Positions 50,514-57,002 of a DNA stretch of 64,000 bases are shown here, in pieces. The stretch's first letter is position 1; every line of letters begins with the position of its first letter. The position numbers and the translations under genes were made by a program. A model generated the notes under the pieces. It was given only the letters and a program-made list of their open reading frames with translations, was not told the DNA's origin and searched no databases. The DNA comes from Acidobacteriota bacterium (GTDB taxonomy: Bacteria > Acidobacteriota > Terriglobia > Bryobacterales > Bryobacteraceae), in assembly GCA_016213775.1 (NCBI GenBank), contig JACQZR010000146.1, positions 1-64,000 on the forward strand. The letters run 5' to 3'.

Positions 50514-52157
50514 TTAATTCCCTTCCGGCCGCTCCACCCTCTCGATCACATACACCGGCACCACCCCTTCGCTCGACTCCAGCCGCAACCCCAACTGCCC
50601 CTGAATCGCCGTATTCAACGCCGGACCGCCCTCCGCCACCGGTGCTGCCCCTCCTGCCTTCTCGTCAGCCAGCGGACCACCGTTCCCCTCCGGTGTCCAT
50701 CTCATCCGAAACGCATAAGTCCCGCTCAGCCCGGTTTGATCCACCACACGCCGCCCCAATTGACCAGACAGATACGCGGCCAGGTTCTTCATCTCCACCT
50801 TCTCCGCCACAATCTGCCCCGGCATGCCGCTGATCCCATCGAACCCCTCCGTCGACGCCTTCAGCTTGTGCCCGTTCTTCTCCACCCGCAGCACGAGCAC
50901 CGCCGCCTCCTTGCGCTCCTCCCGAACCACCAAGCGAAACCGCTCCGCCAGCAGACTCCGCATTCGTGCCCGCATCAGCTTCAACCAGCGCTCCATCGCC
51001 GCTCCGTCGCCGGCCACCAACTCCTCCCCCTTCACCTCAATATCGAAGCCCTCCGTGTCCACCCACGACGGTCCCCCCACCACCTGGAACTTCTCCGCAT
51101 CGTAAGCCTGCATGATCAACTGCCGCAGCCGCGCATTCACAACCCGCTGCCCTCCGCCTGTCCGGAACTGAATCACCAGACCCCGCGCCCCAGGGTCCGA
51201 CCGCTTCACCGACACCACTTCGAAAGTCTCCGCCTGCCCCCGCAGCATACCCACCCCAACAGGCCCGACCACGGCCATCAGACCCAACACCACCAACCCC
51301 AACTTCCGCCCCCGCGACAGCCGCACTCCCATTCTCCCCGCCATAATCTCCCGAATCCTGCGTTTCAAATTCGACCCCGTTACCCCAGCCGCGCACCCCA
51401 GTGGCGACCGCAAGTAATACCGGCACACCGCCGCAATCCCCGCCGCGTACTCCCGTGGATCCAGTCCTTCCCCCATCACCGCCTCATCGCAAGCCCGTTC
51501 CCGCTCCTCCAACAACCGCAAGCCAATCCACCACACCGCCGGATGGAACCAGAACACCGTCGCCACCGCCATATGGACCGCGTACGTCAGGTTGTCCCAA
51601 CACCGTACATGACACAGCTCGTGCGCCAATACAGCCCGTAACTGTTCCCCCGGCAACACCCGCGTCAGTCCTTCCGGTACCAGCAGCAGCGGCCGCACGA
51701 TCCCGAATACTCCCGGCTCCGCCATCCGGTCAGTCACCCTCACTGGCACGGCGAAGTCGAATCCCGCGGGCGTCGAACCCACCGCCATCGTCCGTAACCG
51801 CAACCACGCCACAATCAACCGCACCGTCAGAACCACCACGCCAATACCCCACACAATAGCCAGCGCCAGCGGCCATTGCGACTCCTCCACCGTCACCGGT
51901 GCAACTACCTCGGGCCCCGGCGAAAACGTCGCCGTGATCGCCTGAACCGTCGCACCCGTCACCGCGCCCCGGACCGGAAAATCCACGCGGTCCCCCACCG
52001 CCACCAACAAGGAAAACGGCACCAGAAACTTTACCGACGCCGCCAGCCAAAGCCAGTACCGCGTCCTCGCGGCGTTGTCTCGCAGCAGCCGGCAAACCAC
52101 CGCCACTGCTACGGCAAACACCGTTGATTGCCACAAGTGGCTGACTACCTCCGCCAT
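50514..52157 (-). CDS. BlaR1-type M56 metallopeptidase fused to TIGR03435 domain (copy 1)
   Basis: A 547-residue membrane protein. Four hydrophobic helices surround an M56 gluzincin domain with zinc motif HELCH in 'RAVLAHELCHVRCWDNL' at about residue 210. Beyond the last helix (about 300) is a periplasmic TIGR03435 domain, 'FEVVSVKRSDPGARGLVIQF' to the C-terminus. BlaR1 proteins sense a ligand outside and cleave a BlaI repressor inside; here the penicillin-binding sensor is replaced by TIGR03435. The start 'MAEVVSHLWQSTVFAVAVAV' is family-typical and lies 2 bp after the upstream stop. Confidence 0.88.
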   Translation of the reverse strand: MAEVVSHLWQSTVFAVAVAVVCRLLRDNAARTRYWLWLAASVKFLVPFSLLVAVGDRVDFPVRGAVTGATVQAITATFSPGPEVVAPVTVEESQWPLALAIVWGIGVVVLTVRLIVAWLRLRTMAVGSTPAGFDFAVPVRVTDRMAEPGVFGIVRPLLLVPEGLTRVLPGEQLRAVLAHELCHVRCWDNLTYAVHMAVATVFWFHPAVWWIGLRLLEERERACDEAVMGEGLDPREYAAGIAAVCRYYLRSPLGCAAGVTGSNLKRRIREIMAGRMGVRLSRGRKLGLVVLGLMAVVGPVGVGMLRGQAETFEVVSVKRSDPGARGLVIQFRTGGGQRVVNARLRQLIMQAYDAEKFQVVGGPSWVDTEGFDIEVKGEELVAGDGAAMERWLKLMRARMRSLLAERFRLVVREERKEAAVLVLRVEKNGHKLKASTEGFDGISGMPGQIVAEKVEMKNLAAYLSGQLGRRVVDQTGLSGTYAFRMRWTPEGNGGPLADEKAGGAAPVAEGGPALNTAIQGQLGLRLESSEGVVPVYVIERVERPEGN

Positions 52158-52159
52158 GT

Positions 52160-52870
52160 TCAATTCTCCGTCGGCTTCTCCGCTTTCACGATCACCTGCA
52201 CATTCACCGGCCCCCTCTTCGATTCCAGCCGCATCCCCAACTGCTCCCGCACAGCCGTCTGAATCGTTGGACCCGGCCCCCCATCCCCTGTCCACTTCAG
52301 TTCATAATCAAACCTGCCCTCCGCGCCGGTCTCATCAATCACCGGCTGTCCCAGAATCATTCCCAACGTTGCCGCCAGATCTGGCGCCGTCACTCCACGT
52401 CCCCGCGACATCCCCACTCCGTCATTCCGGTTGATCGTCGTCGCCCCCGGCCCGGTCGGATTCGCAGTCAGTTTGCGACCGTTCCTCTCGCTCCGCAGTG
52501 CCAGTACCGGCATCTCCTTTGTCTCCTCCCGCAACACCAGCCCGAACCGCTCCGCCAGTAAGTCCCGCATCCGCAGCCGCGTCCGCCGGTCCCTCACCGT
52601 TAGCGGTTCGTCCGGCGCGTCGTACTTTGCAATCAGGTCATACCGGTCGTGCTGCATCCATGGTTGCGCCCCGCTTATCTGGAACCTGCGGATGTTATAC
52701 GCATACTCGATCAACCCGGTTAGACTCATGTTCCGGATCGTCACCCGGTCCTTGTCGGCATTCACCGTCGTCCCAATCGCCCCCGGAGCAGTCGGCCGGA
52801 TCGATGCCACCTCGAACTTCGGCGCCTCCGTTTGCCCCAATAACATCCCCGCCATCGCCACCAAAAACAC
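52160..52870 (-). CDS. TIGR03435 protein, remnant of an M56 fusion with an amber codon
   Basis: From a GTG this encodes 236 residues: a short hydrophobic leader 'FLVAMAGMLLGQ', then a complete TIGR03435 domain ('FEVASIRPTAPGAIGTTVNA' to 'VIVKAEKP'). In the same frame just upstream, an ATG at 52903 opens 'MGTVNHLWQ', a TAG at 52874-52876, then 'TVF'. The other two copies read HLWQSTVF or HLWQSTLF there. So this is an M56-TIGR03435 gene that lost its entire peptidase part by deletion and gained a stop where Ser was. It may still be expressed as a small secreted protein. Confidence 0.75.
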   Translation of the reverse strand: MFLVAMAGMLLGQTEAPKFEVASIRPTAPGAIGTTVNADKDRVTIRNMSLTGLIEYAYNIRRFQISGAQPWMQHDRYDLIAKYDAPDEPLTVRDRRTRLRMRDLLAERFGLVLREETKEMPVLALRSERNGRKLTANPTGPGATTINRNDGVGMSRGRGVTAPDLAATLGMILGQPVIDETGAEGRFDYELKWTGDGGPGPTIQTAVREQLGMRLESKRGPVNVQVIVKAEKPTEN

Positions 52871-52907
52871 CGTCTATTGCCACAAATGATTCACGGTTCC
52901 CATCGCG

Positions 52908-54539
52908 TCAGTTTTCCGTCGGCTTTGCCACACCCTCAATCACGTAAGTCTTCACCGGCCCCTTCTTCGACTCCAACCGCAGCCCAAGTTGCTCCTTCAA
53001 CGCCGTATAGATCGTCGGACCACCATCCCCCGCCCCATCCGCCGTCCACTTCATCTCCACCGCAAACAAACCCGCAAGCCCCGTCTCATCCACCACCGGC
53101 CTCCCCAGCTTCCCACTGAGCGTGACAGCCAGCCGCTCCATCGTCAGTCCATCGCCACGCAACACGCCGCTCCCATTGTTCTCGTTGACGTTCATGTTTC
53201 CCTTGCCATCCGGATCGGCCTTGAACTTATGCCCTCCCCGGTCCACCACTAATCCAAAAATAGGCAGCTCTTTCGTCTCCTCGCGAAGCTTCAACTGGAA
53301 GCGTTCCGCCAGCAAATGACGCAGCCGCGCCTTGATCCGCGCATCGCGCGACTTCTGTCTGCTCACTTCGCTCGCCGTGACATTGTCCTCGCTCGCATCA
53401 TAGTTGGCCACAATGTCATACCGCTCAGACAGCACCCACTCCGGCCCGCCGGTCAGTTGATACTCCTGCACACTGTACGCGAACAGCACCAACTGCCTCA
53501 GCGTCGTGTTGCTCGTCGTCATCCGAGCCTGACTGGTATGCATGCTCGAACTGCTCCCCCTCCCCGGCGCCGCCGGCCGTATCGACGCTACCTCGAACTT
53601 GAACCCGTCGGTCGCGGTCTGCCCTTGCAGTCCGCCAAGAATCAACGGCACCGCCACAACCACAGCCACTCCGCAACACAGCAGCGCCTTGCTCCAGCCC
53701 TTCAGCCCCGCAGGCATCGGATCTGTCAGGATCGCGGCTATCCGCTTCCGCAAATCCGCTCCGCTTACACCAGCGGCGCAAGGCAGCGGGCTTCCAACGT
53801 AGTGCTTGCAGACATTCAGAATCCCCCGTGCATACTCGGCGCGCGCCTTCCCCTCGGCCACTACCGCCTCATCGCAGGCACGCTCCCGCTCCTCCACCAG
53901 CCGCGCCCCGATCCACCAGATCAGCGGATGGTACCAAAACACCGCCGTCGCCCCCATGTGCAACGCCGCTGTCAGGTTGTCGCGATGCCGCGCATGCGTC
54001 ACTTCGTGCGCCAGTACCGCTTCCAATTGCTCCGGAGTCAGCTTACTCGCCAGACCCTCGGGAAGCACCAGCGCTTGCCGCCATATTCCGAATACCCCCG
54101 GTTCCACGTCGGCTCCTGTTTCATATACCGGCACCGGAATCCCCAGCCATACCCTTCGCGCCGTCCGCCGGATCGCGCGCAACCGGATCCATTCCCGCAG
54201 CCATCGCCCCGCTACAACAGCCGCTCCCACTACCCAGATCACTGGCCACGCCGGACGCCCCGTCGCCGGTGCGTCCTCCGTTACAACCAGCGCCGCCGGA
54301 GCAAACGTACTCGTAATCCGCTCCACCGTCTGCGCCTCTACTTGAGGTCGCGTCGTCGGCCTCTCCACGCGCTGCCCCAGGCTCACCAGCAGCGAAAACG
54401 GCAACAGAAACTTCACCGACGCCGCTAGCCATAACCAGTACCGCGTCCGTGCATGCGTGCCCCGCATTGCGAAACACAAGCAGCCAATTACCACCGCGAA
54501 CAACGTCGATTGCCACAGATGATTCAACAGCTCGCTCAT
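52908..54539 (-). CDS. BlaR1-type M56 metallopeptidase fused to TIGR03435 domain (copy 2)
   Basis: A 543-residue paralogue of the protein encoded at 50514-52157. 'LLNHLWQSTLFAVVIGCLCF' is the first helix, the zinc motif is HEVTH in 'EAVLAHEVTHARHRDNL', a fourth helix lies near residue 310 ('VAVVVAVPLILGGLQG'), and the TIGR03435 domain begins 'FKFEVASIRPAAPGRG'. It starts 2 bp after blaI and forms the classical regulator-sensor pair with it. The frame extends upstream through blaI, but only this ATG gives the family start. Confidence 0.88.
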   Translation of the reverse strand: MSELLNHLWQSTLFAVVIGCLCFAMRGTHARTRYWLWLAASVKFLLPFSLLVSLGQRVERPTTRPQVEAQTVERITSTFAPAALVVTEDAPATGRPAWPVIWVVGAAVVAGRWLREWIRLRAIRRTARRVWLGIPVPVYETGADVEPGVFGIWRQALVLPEGLASKLTPEQLEAVLAHEVTHARHRDNLTAALHMGATAVFWYHPLIWWIGARLVEERERACDEAVVAEGKARAEYARGILNVCKHYVGSPLPCAAGVSGADLRKRIAAILTDPMPAGLKGWSKALLCCGVAVVVAVPLILGGLQGQTATDGFKFEVASIRPAAPGRGSSSSMHTSQARMTTSNTTLRQLVLFAYSVQEYQLTGGPEWVLSERYDIVANYDASEDNVTASEVSRQKSRDARIKARLRHLLAERFQLKLREETKELPIFGLVVDRGGHKFKADPDGKGNMNVNENNGSGVLRGDGLTMERLAVTLSGKLGRPVVDETGLAGLFAVEMKWTADGAGDGGPTIYTALKEQLGLRLESKKGPVKTYVIEGVAKPTEN

Positions 54540-54541
54540 AG

Positions 54542-54928
54542 CTACCTCTCTGTTTCTTTGCGTGCCAGATCCTGAATGAGCTTCTCCGTTTCCCGGACAT
54601 CCTCCAAAGTCAACTTCCCGGTCTCCACCAGGTGCGCCATCACCGGCTGCGTCCGTCCCCCAAACCATCCCAACAACTCGTCAATCAGGCGCCCTCGTCC
54701 TTCCTTCCGCGTCAACACCGGTTCAAAGATGTGCGCATTCCCGATCTTCCGCGTCCGCCGCAGCGCACCCTTGTCCTCCAGCCGGTACACGGTCGTCTGA
54801 ATCGTCGTGTACGCCGGCCTCCCCTCAGCAGGAAAAGCCTCCTGGATCTCCCGAATCGAAAGCCGCCCGGTCTTCCAAAGCGCTTCCATGATCTGCAGTT
54901 CCAAAGGCGTAAGTTTACCGTGCTCCAT
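54542..54928 (-). CDS. blaI: BlaI/MecI-family transcriptional repressor
   Basis: A 128-residue winged-helix repressor. 'LTPLELQIMEALWKTGRLSI' and 'RPAYTTIQTTVYRLEDKGAL' form the DNA-binding domain; the C-terminal helices dimerise. BlaI proteins are cleaved after the M56 sensor is activated, which frees the promoter. A second ATG six bases earlier is possible; this one lies 8 nt after a TATAGT element. The palindrome upstream should be its own operator, so the repressor and the three genes behind it would be autoregulated. Confidence 0.9.
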   Translation of the reverse strand: MEHGKLTPLELQIMEALWKTGRLSIREIQEAFPAEGRPAYTTIQTTVYRLEDKGALRRTRKIGNAHIFEPVLTRKEGRGRLIDELLGWFGGRTQPVMAHLVETGKLTLEDVRETEKLIQDLARKETER

Positions 54929-54936
54929 CAGCATCT

Positions 54937-55088: not shown

Positions 55089-55799
55089 ATGAAATTCTAT
55101 CCGATTCCTGATCCGCGCAGCGGCGCGGTCACCCCTCAAATGTTGGCGGACTTGCAGCAGATCGGCATTTTGCCGCGGAACATAGGCGCGTTTGCCAATG
55201 CGTTTCACTGGCAATCCGTATCTCCGGTCCTGCCTCCGTTGGAAGGCAGCGGCCCGAAGTTCTGGAGGGACAATGCAACCTTGTGGGATCAGCGGTCAAC
55301 ATACGACTATCTGATGCTGGCGCGCAACGCCGATGGCAGCTACGCGAGCCATCCAGTGGACTCCGTTCCAAATGGCGACATCTACTCGCTGCAGACGGTG
55401 AACTTCTACCGCGAGTATGGTTCGCACTTTTCGCGGATTCCGAGTTTTGTGGTGAAGACACTGGCACGCGAAGATGCCGGCCGGCTGAACTTCTCGGCGG
55501 GGCAGACGGTGGATTATCCGATTGGAATTTACCTGGACAACGATCCGACCGCGGCCAATGGACGCCGGGCGACTTTCCCGCCGAACATGGCGATGCGGTT
55601 CAATCCGCAGACTGGTCAGGCGGAAGCGTTCTTCGTGGAGGAGTATGTGAAGGCTCATCCACTCGATTACACGCCTCGTGATCCGAACGCGGGACGGCGC
55701 TTGAGTGACGGAGAATTGGTGAGCGCTGTTGGGCTTGTTCTGGGTACGACGATGGAGGTTGCGAAAAAGGCGGCGGCCATCCGGCAGTTGGCTGCCTGA
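55089..55799 (+). CDS. Hypothetical protein
   Basis: A 236-residue soluble protein without signal peptide or membrane helix. I do not recognise the family. It begins 'MKFYPIPDPRSGAVTPQMLA' and has a central aromatic-rich part ('NFYREYGSHFSRIPSFVVKT'). It ends with a helix. AGAAGGGA lies 7 nt before the ATG; the frame is open back to 54807, but that part crosses blaI. It is followed by the hairpin-rich noncoding region. Confidence 0.65.
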   Translation: MKFYPIPDPRSGAVTPQMLADLQQIGILPRNIGAFANAFHWQSVSPVLPPLEGSGPKFWRDNATLWDQRSTYDYLMLARNADGSYASHPVDSVPNGDIYSLQTVNFYREYGSHFSRIPSFVVKTLAREDAGRLNFSAGQTVDYPIGIYLDNDPTAANGRRATFPPNMAMRFNPQTGQAEAFFVEEYVKAHPLDYTPRDPNAGRRLSDGELVSAVGLVLGTTMEVAKKAAAIRQLAA

Positions 55800-55805
55800 C
55801 GAAAA

Positions 55806-55869
55806 CGGATCTCGGGACACGGGAGAGATCCGGCATGAGGACAGGGCGATCTTGGGCGGTCGCCTTGTC
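55806..55869. other. Two adjacent stem-loops after the hypothetical gene
   Basis: CGGATCTC (55806-55813) pairs with GAGATCCG (55825-55832) with an 11-nt loop. GACAGGGCGA (55840-55849) pairs with TCGCCTTGTC (55860-55869), with one G-U pair and a 10-nt loop. No T-run follows either. They are the first of ten hairpins in a 515-bp noncoding block. Confidence 0.6.
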
Positions 55870-55890
55870 TTACAACCTGACTTTTGGGTG

Positions 55891-56026
55891 ACGGTGCGCT
55901 TCTGAGAATCGGCGCACCGTTTCGCTGTCTACGTTCCGGCGGCAGCGATCATAGCAACCCGTGCGTTGGGGAGCGCGCGGGTTTTTGCAGGCGGGGCGGT
56001 TTGAGCGGCTGCCCCGCCTATTTTTT
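55891..56026 (+). repeat. Structured repeat unit, copy 1 (three hairpins)
   Basis: Hairpin 1 is ACGGTGCGC/GCGCACCGT (55891-55920). Hairpin 2 is CCCGTGCG/CGCGCGGG (55958-55981) followed by TTTTT. Hairpin 3 is GGCGGGGC/GCCCCGCC (55990-56018) followed by TATTTTTT. Hairpins 2 and 3 look like intrinsic terminators for plus-strand transcripts. The whole unit is repeated once, 149 bp later. Indels between copies (7 bp and 1 bp) are not multiples of three, so a coding role is unlikely. Confidence 0.8.
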
Positions 56027-56040
56027 CGAGTTTCTATTGG

Positions 56041-56180
56041 CGGTGCGTCTTCTGAGATTCGGCGCACCGTTTCGCTGTCTGACCGTTACGTTCCGGCGAC
56101 AGCGATCATGGCAACCCGCGCGTTGGAGAGCGCGCGGGTTTTTGCAGGCGGGGCGGTTTGAGCGGCTGCCCCGCCTATTT
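56041..56180 (+). repeat. Structured repeat unit, copy 2 (three hairpins)
   Basis: It has the same order as copy 1: CGGTGCG/CGCACCG (56041-56069), CCCGCGCG/CGCGCGGG (56115-56138) with TTTTT, and GGCGGGGC/GCCCCGCC (56147-56175) followed by TATTTT. In hairpin 2 the G-U pair of copy 1 is a G-C pair here, which keeps the stem. The spacer between hairpins 1 and 2 has seven extra bases. Possible roles are a duplicated terminator or a small structured RNA. Confidence 0.8.
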
Positions 56181-56239
56181 TGCCGGGCTACGTTCGAACT
56201 TGACGGCCATGACTTGAGGGAGACATGGCTGTCAATAGA

Positions 56240-56263
56240 CGTGCTTACTGGGGGGTAAGCACG
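56240..56263. other. Stem-loop with 9-bp perfect stem
   Basis: CGTGCTTAC (56240-56248) pairs with GTAAGCACG (56255-56263) around a six-base loop TGGGGG. No T-run follows. Confidence 0.65.
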
Positions 56264-56272
56264 GATCCGGCA

Positions 56273-56319
56273 CAGCGACGGTTCTGCGCGGTTGAGGCAA
56301 CTCCCCGGAACCGTCGCTG
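56273..56319. other. Stem-loop with 12-bp perfect stem before the methyltransferase stop
   Basis: CAGCGACGGTTC (56273-56284) pairs with GAACCGTCGCTG (56308-56319). The 23-nt loop itself holds GTTG/CAAC. It lies 9 bp beyond the 3' end of the minus-strand methyltransferase gene and may protect or end that transcript, although no T-run is present on the minus strand. Confidence 0.65.
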
Positions 56320-56327
56320 CCGATGGG

Positions 56328-57002
56328 TCACGATGCTTCACGACGCCAAGTCAAAGACAGGCGAAACCACGGGGCATGGCTGAGCACTTGCGCGCCGCGG
56401 CAATCCGCATGTCCGGCCAGACGCTGCAACTCCTCGCGGTGAAATCCTGCGTCCACCGAAACCGGTCCGTCATGGAGAGTAACGGGGCTCCATTGAAAGA
56501 ACCAATGCGAGGCCGTAAGGAATCGGCGAGCCGCCCAATGCCTTTCCAAATCAATGCAAATCACCGACTGGCGGCTTACGCGCCTCATCTCGCGCAGCAC
56601 CTCCACCACCTCGTGATCGGGGAAATGATGGAGCACAAGATTACAGCAGACCACGTCGAACGACCTCTCGGCGAACGGCAAGCGCAGCGCATCCGCGCCC
56701 AGACGGCAGCCGGCGCCGTGATGCAGATTGCGTATGCTTTTATCGGTTGAGACGATGTTCGCGCGGGGGTACCGTCGGGCCAGCGAAAGCTGCAGCGGGC
56801 ACGCACCAGAACCTATATCGAGCAGATGAAACCGGTCAGTCCGCCGATACCAGCGGGAGATCAGGGCGAGAAAAATACGCTCTCCACCGAGATAGCGATG
56901 GATCCGCAGCAGGTCCCGGAGATTGCCCTCCGCCTCGCTATCGGAAGCCGTATCAAGCAGTTCCTGTTGAATCCGCCGCCCATCCAAAGCGGTAAGCCCC
57001 AT
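56328..57002 (-). CDS. Class I SAM-dependent methyltransferase
   Basis: A 224-residue Rossmann-fold methyltransferase. Motif I is 'LLDIGSGACPLQLSLARRYP', motif II has the acidic 'IVSTDKS', and 'DALRLPFAERSFDVVCCNLV' with 'LHHFPDHEVVEVLREMRRVS' are motifs III-IV and the following helix, as in UbiE/type-11 small-molecule methyltransferases. It is transcribed away from tdk with 23 bp between start codons; a weak TACCAT lies 6 nt before its ATG. The substrate is unknown. Confidence 0.85.
   Translation of the reverse strand: MGLTALDGRRIQQELLDTASDSEAEGNLRDLLRIHRYLGGERIFLALISRWYRRTDRFHLLDIGSGACPLQLSLARRYPRANIVSTDKSIRNLHHGAGCRLGADALRLPFAERSFDVVCCNLVLHHFPDHEVVEVLREMRRVSRQSVICIDLERHWAARRFLTASHWFFQWSPVTLHDGPVSVDAGFHREELQRLAGHADCRGAQVLSHAPWFRLSLTWRREAS

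Follow-up and report, generated by a model that had tools for sequence, protein, structure and literature searches.

The window, by which we mean the whole 64,000-nucleotide stretch of acidobacterial DNA analysed here, contains between positions 55806 and 56319 a noncoding block that separates two convergent genes, an orphan gene on the + strand and a methyltransferase gene on the – strand. The block is packed with 13 separate hairpins, numbered H1 to H13 along the + strand:

55089-55799, + strand: orphan gene encoding 236 aa, with its stop codon at 55797-55799.
55806-55832, + strand: H1, an 8-bp hairpin; read on the – strand, TTTTCG comes after its stem, so that the hairpin may terminate the convergent gene.
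55836-55873, + strand: H2, a 14-bp hairpin with several G·U pairs (-23.1 versus -13.7 on the – strand).
55889-56027, + strand: first copy of the duplicated unit, with H3 (55890), H4 (55922), H5 (55954, U-tail) and H6 (55989, tail AUUUUUU).
55989-56019, + strand: H6 itself, a 13-bp terminator-like hairpin that includes GGUUUGAGC.
56039-56185, + strand: second copy of the duplicated unit, with H7 (56039), H8 (56072), H9 (56111, U-tail) and H10 (56146, tail AUUUUG).
56200-56235, + strand: H11, a hairpin with a UUGAGGG loop.
56240-56264, + strand: H12, a 10-bp hairpin with ACUGGGGGGU at its apex.
56269-56323, + strand: H13, a conserved motif hairpin, type c, backed by a covariance-model match and by covariation.
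56328-57002, – strand: convergent methyltransferase gene, which is no constant neighbour of the array across relatives.

Upstream in the same window, positions 50514-54934 encode a BlaI-like repressor and, after it, a BlaR1-type M56 peptidase fused to a DUF3738 domain, and the long – strand ORFs neighbouring this region look similar by eye.

A preliminary description of this DNA had already recognized a noncoding block of strong, closely packed hairpins between convergent genes, but had counted ten of them where we find 13. It had likewise seen that a unit is tandemly duplicated, although that unit comprises four hairpins rather than three and spans 55889-56027 and 56039-56185 rather than 55891-56026 and 56041-56180. 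The two copies differ in their loops, their linkers, the final bases of their T-runs and two stem positions. T-runs do follow the last two hairpins of each copy, as had been reported, and the replacement of a G·U pair by G-C (H5/H9) preserves pairing, as does a second such change, from U·G to U-A (H4/H8); both stem substitutions (n = 2) are thus from wobble to Watson-Crick. The indels between the copies, of 1 and 7 nt, are those first noted and both fall within loops, and because the 7-nt indel changes the reading frame between the copies, a coding origin of the block was set aside. If an intrinsic terminator is taken to be a G+C-rich stem directly followed by a U-run, then H5, H6, H9 and H10 carry the U-tail on the + strand and the other nine of the 13 hairpins do not.

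Both strands were folded, as the preliminary description had proposed, and both lie far beyond their shuffles: the minimum free energy is -298.6 kcal/mol (z = -12.2) on the + strand and -239.1 kcal/mol (z = -11.1) on the – strand, the + strand folding far better. The block holds six perfect stems of at least 8 bp, compared with 0.09 expected from shuffles, and these make up six of the 11 such stems in the whole 64-kb window. When folding energies were corrected for GC, the block ranked lowest of 20,910 segments of 300 nt taken from 1.37 Mb of its genome; the strongest other segments, as inspected, are coding, with the exception of one cluster (L032 1225-1413). That cluster is a smaller group of hairpins (GGCTGGCC..GGCCAGCC and others) and also lies between two convergent genes. 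The bias toward the + strand extends beyond the window, with folding energy lower on the + strand at eight of nine loci and G·U pairs commoner on it at all nine, and in the outer stem of the motif hairpin a U·G pair is retained at the inner end. This folding advantage, the excess of G·U pairs and the retention of U·G in the motif argue for an array that acts as RNA, transcribed codirectionally with the orphan gene.

The orphan gene itself lies very close to the array. The first hairpin starts 6 nt past its stop codon in the window, and in relatives the array starts less than 30 nt past it, spacing that leaves no room for a separate promoter before the first hairpin. Searches detected the gene in nine of 12 genomes from its genus, a group of soil bacteria, and nowhere among 225 further genomes representing the rest of the family. 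Its products (the window protein and those of L012-L019) form a family of about 230-242 aa with 50-98% identity and no recognisable domain. No match was found in Pfam, PHROG or PDB sequences; in NCBIfam, the window protein had no match at E ≤ 1 and its relatives gave only sub-threshold noise. A fold search came back empty (best E 1.4) with poor AlphaFold models (pLDDT 52 and 55), and viral contigs and phages yielded no copy of the gene. With a pI of about 5.7-6.6 among full-length members, the protein is not basic and is therefore no obvious RNA binder; it is a candidate binding partner of the array only through linkage.

Exact DNA comparison found no copy of the block in 60 relatives or elsewhere in its own genome, and the duplicated four-hairpin unit, which had been the main argument of the preliminary description for a novel RNA family, was not found in the relatives. 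Strong arrays, mostly unrelated in sequence, nevertheless lie downstream of the orthologous gene in seven of the eight congeners that carry it (L012-L016, L018 and L019, identical to L003-L006 and L008-L010). Segments with z ≤ -3 in L012-L014, L016, L018 and L019 fall just downstream of the gene and nearly all on the gene strand, L016 having one extra segment of this kind upstream of the gene; L015 is narrowly outside the cut. The exception is L017 (genome G007), where the orphan gene stands without an array, so the gene has no strict need of one. All these relatives are MAGs, the named ones from Bryobacterales, and they represent about three to four independent lineages, L012-L015 being closely related.

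On the far side of the array, the convergent partner is the methyltransferase in the window and TsaE in L012-L015 (as tested on the copy in L003); in L016 and L019 it is a gene that, judged from its ORF, is flavin-reductase-like. Because this partner varies between lineages, the constant neighbour is the orphan gene, and the convergent gene pair is unlikely to explain the block. Most relatives have two copies of a three-hairpin group in which the motif hairpin comes third; the counterpart of this group in the window is H11-H12-H13. In L016 and L018 the two modules are separated by a U-tailed hairpin, and a U-tail also follows the second motif hairpin in L012-L014. Five representative arrays have an excess of the 7-mer TTGGCGG (6 occurrences versus 0.8 expected), the window's copy lying outside loops, and the UUGGGC loop of H2 resembles, suggestively at most, the loop of the hairpin that precedes the motif hairpin in relatives. 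When whole modules were aligned (alignment A3), RNAalifold supported the motif hairpin only, and we make no family claim for the first two module hairpins, since these are recognised by position and loop alone.

The motif hairpin consists of a variable outer stem, a left bulge CGC, a GG/CC helix, a left bulge UU, a GAGC/GCUC helix, written GAG(C)/(G)CUC for H13, and a loop. Its 12 copies come from seven of the 12 genus genomes, namely the window's and those of six relatives, with one or two copies per array where it is found and always behind the orphan gene. Nine of its 20 pairs have changed on both sides, and its covariation score of 0.325 compares with 0.160 ± 0.022 for shuffles and 0.07-0.16 for slid structures, although four close relatives from one clade contribute heavily to these counts; covariation is similar when the window copy is left out. 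The inner part is nearly invariant, while the outer stem covaries and stays mostly paired. Compensatory changes that preserve pairing across homologues, the general mark of a conserved RNA and one that the preliminary description had proposed to look for along with conserved structure elsewhere, were thus found for this hairpin. The idea of a novel RNA family accordingly draws its support from the covarying hairpin at 56269-56323, which the window shares with its relatives, and not from the duplicated unit.

A covariance model built from the 11 copies of the relatives identified the window copy (56266-56324; 33.9 bits, E 8.5e-5) as its sole significant match in 421 kb, and it gave no other significant match when 0.96 Mb more was searched. 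Across the 12 genus genomes, with up to 150 candidates scored per genome, every significant match lies inside an array, and none was found in the genus genomes that lack the orphan gene; stricter filters applied to 237 genomes of the family returned no member outside the genus. Linkage to the orphan gene is thus exclusive within the genus. In L019 (genome G001) the motif hairpin was not recognised. H6 matches the model weakly (13.6 bits, E 3.8 in 421 kb), faintly suggesting that the duplicated unit, whose last hairpin (H6 or H10) carries GGUUUGAGC, may be a diverged or degenerate form of the motif group. A distant match at the level of the phylum (G513, E 9e-4 for one genome) was rejected, being a near-perfect long palindrome in which the conserved inner motif is missing. 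L114 886-946, from an acidobacterium belonging to a different family, is a long G+C-rich palindrome and a false match of the model, apparently a different hairpin element.

Two further features were observed around the orphan gene in relatives. No more than about 60 nt upstream of the gene in L012-L015, a leader hairpin just before the Shine-Dalgarno sequence carries GCGGTTGA, an 8-mer also present in the motif hairpin of the array behind the gene; the leader in the window lacks it. Judging from its presence at both ends, one factor could bind leader and array alike. Separately, L016 5107-5170 and its counterpart in L018, which separate the two modules, form near-identical hairpins whose loops are long and rich in pyrimidines; the L016 loop CCTTTCTCCTTTC is complementary to the Shine-Dalgarno sequence AAAGGA of the orphan gene.

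Since one type of hairpin recurs behind the same gene in six relatives with its pairing conserved, the block is probably a new structured RNA rather than a pile of stop signals. To the more specific reading, that it is the structured 3′ UTR of the orphan gene or an RNA derived from its 3′ end, with a functional motif, we give roughly an even chance. Transcription of the orphan gene would continue directly into the array, where the U-tailed hairpins H5/H6 and H9/H10 would terminate part of the transcripts; read-through transcripts would extend to H13, which could be reached by read-through only, because the terminators of the window precede it. The inner part of the motif, offered in repeated copies, may be what a protein or an RNA recognises, with the remaining hairpins serving as spacers, protectors and terminators. 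The hairpins might guard the 3′ end, be freed as a stable RNA or bind a factor, and we infer that such a binding partner would affect the stability or expression of the mRNA. An attenuator-like array, which had also been proposed, is unlikely because the array lies after the gene and heads into the convergent one.

Ordinary intrinsic terminators and stabilising hairpins, stacked between convergent genes and multiplied by tandem duplication with their loops functionless, give a possible though doubtful account of the block. The tandem duplication is plain, the four U-tailed hairpins on the + strand and the U-tailed H1 on the – strand are what such a stack would contain, and the smaller cluster at L032 1225-1413 occupies the same kind of gap in the same genome. 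Yet conserved inner bulges are needless for terminators, whereas the interior of the motif hardly varies and its stem covaries; the motif is limited to one locus per genome, arrays of this kind are rare in the genome, and nine of the 13 hairpins carry no U-tail on the + strand. It is unlikely, too, that the block consists of independent small RNA genes (one or several), in which every unit would have a promoter and a terminator of its own and which would only happen to sit behind the orphan gene. Although each unit copy in the window ends in a terminator and a U-tailed hairpin separates the modules in L016 and L018, a search for the sigma-70 consensus only found a single promoter-like site in the 4 kb around the block, on the opposite strand and at chance level, the stop codon is too near the first hairpin, and the linkage to the orphan gene survives changed neighbourhoods.

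Also unlikely is a reading in which orphan protein and array would together form a genus-specific RNA-protein system, the array being an abundant RNA whose repeated motif hairpins bind the orphan protein (or the leader of its own mRNA); by analogy, this would be OLE-like in kind and unrelated in origin. An element acting as DNA, such as a cruciform or recombination site, is very improbable: its palindromes are near-perfect, but the conserved innermost U·G pairs of the outer stem and the lower folding energy of the + strand at eight of nine loci speak against it, and no recombinase was seen among the flanking genes examined. Dispersed palindromic repeats (REP/BIME or MITE-like) accumulated in a permissive gap, the last of the earlier proposals, were rejected as more improbable still, for despite the many palindromes and tandem copies in a noncoding gap, neither its own genome nor 60 relatives yielded a second copy of the block, the motif hairpin is confined to the arrays, and the + strand bias with its G·U pairs points to RNA rather than to DNA symmetry.

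In the usual view, a bacterial 3′ UTR is a terminator and nothing else. Here a gene found in one genus only retains a structured tail of 0.5 kb: duplication renews the sequence of this tail, and compensatory changes preserve one hairpin motif in it. If expressed, the structured 3′ UTR favoured above would provide a compact test case for the function of long structured 3′ UTRs, and a new RNA family to seek in Bryobacterales transcriptomes.

Among known RNAs, the block had no match at the gathering score in Rfam release 15, its best sub-threshold hit being asX1 (E 0.3, 23.6 versus 70 bits), and the loci of the relatives had no match up to E 0.5. Of the candidate structured RNAs described from Acidobacteria (PMC2864571), Acido-1 and Acido-Lenti-1 have Rfam accessions and do not match the block, while Solibacter-1 has none and so falls outside this comparison. 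With intrinsic (Rho-independent) terminators the block shares G+C-rich, U-tailed hairpins at a gene end (H5, H6, H9 and H10), but it contains 13 hairpins, most without a U-tail, including one type with a conserved bulged interior that is specific to a single gene. In stringing together hairpins that might give one protein several places to bind, the block recalls the sequestering RNAs of the CsrB/RsmZ type (PMC5027483); the motif here, however, is not a GGA loop, and a CsrB-like sponge was rejected because no CsrA gene (PF02599) was detected in this genome (G000), control genomes being positive. The STAXI motif, a pseudoknot near genes for DNA-handling proteins, is also a small structured element in two to three tandem repeats (PMC2864571), whereas the elements here are bulged hairpins behind an orphan gene. 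OLE, ROOL and GOLLD (PMC12286853) are comparable in their elaborate structure over about 0.5-0.6 kb and in having no known function, but the array here is serial, without evident long-range architecture, belongs to one genus and is not phage-borne as far as searched. OLE RNA is bound by known protein partners (PMC12286853), and the consistent adjacency to one protein gene that characterizes OLE-like RNAs is seen here too, in seven of the eight congeners that carry the orphan gene.
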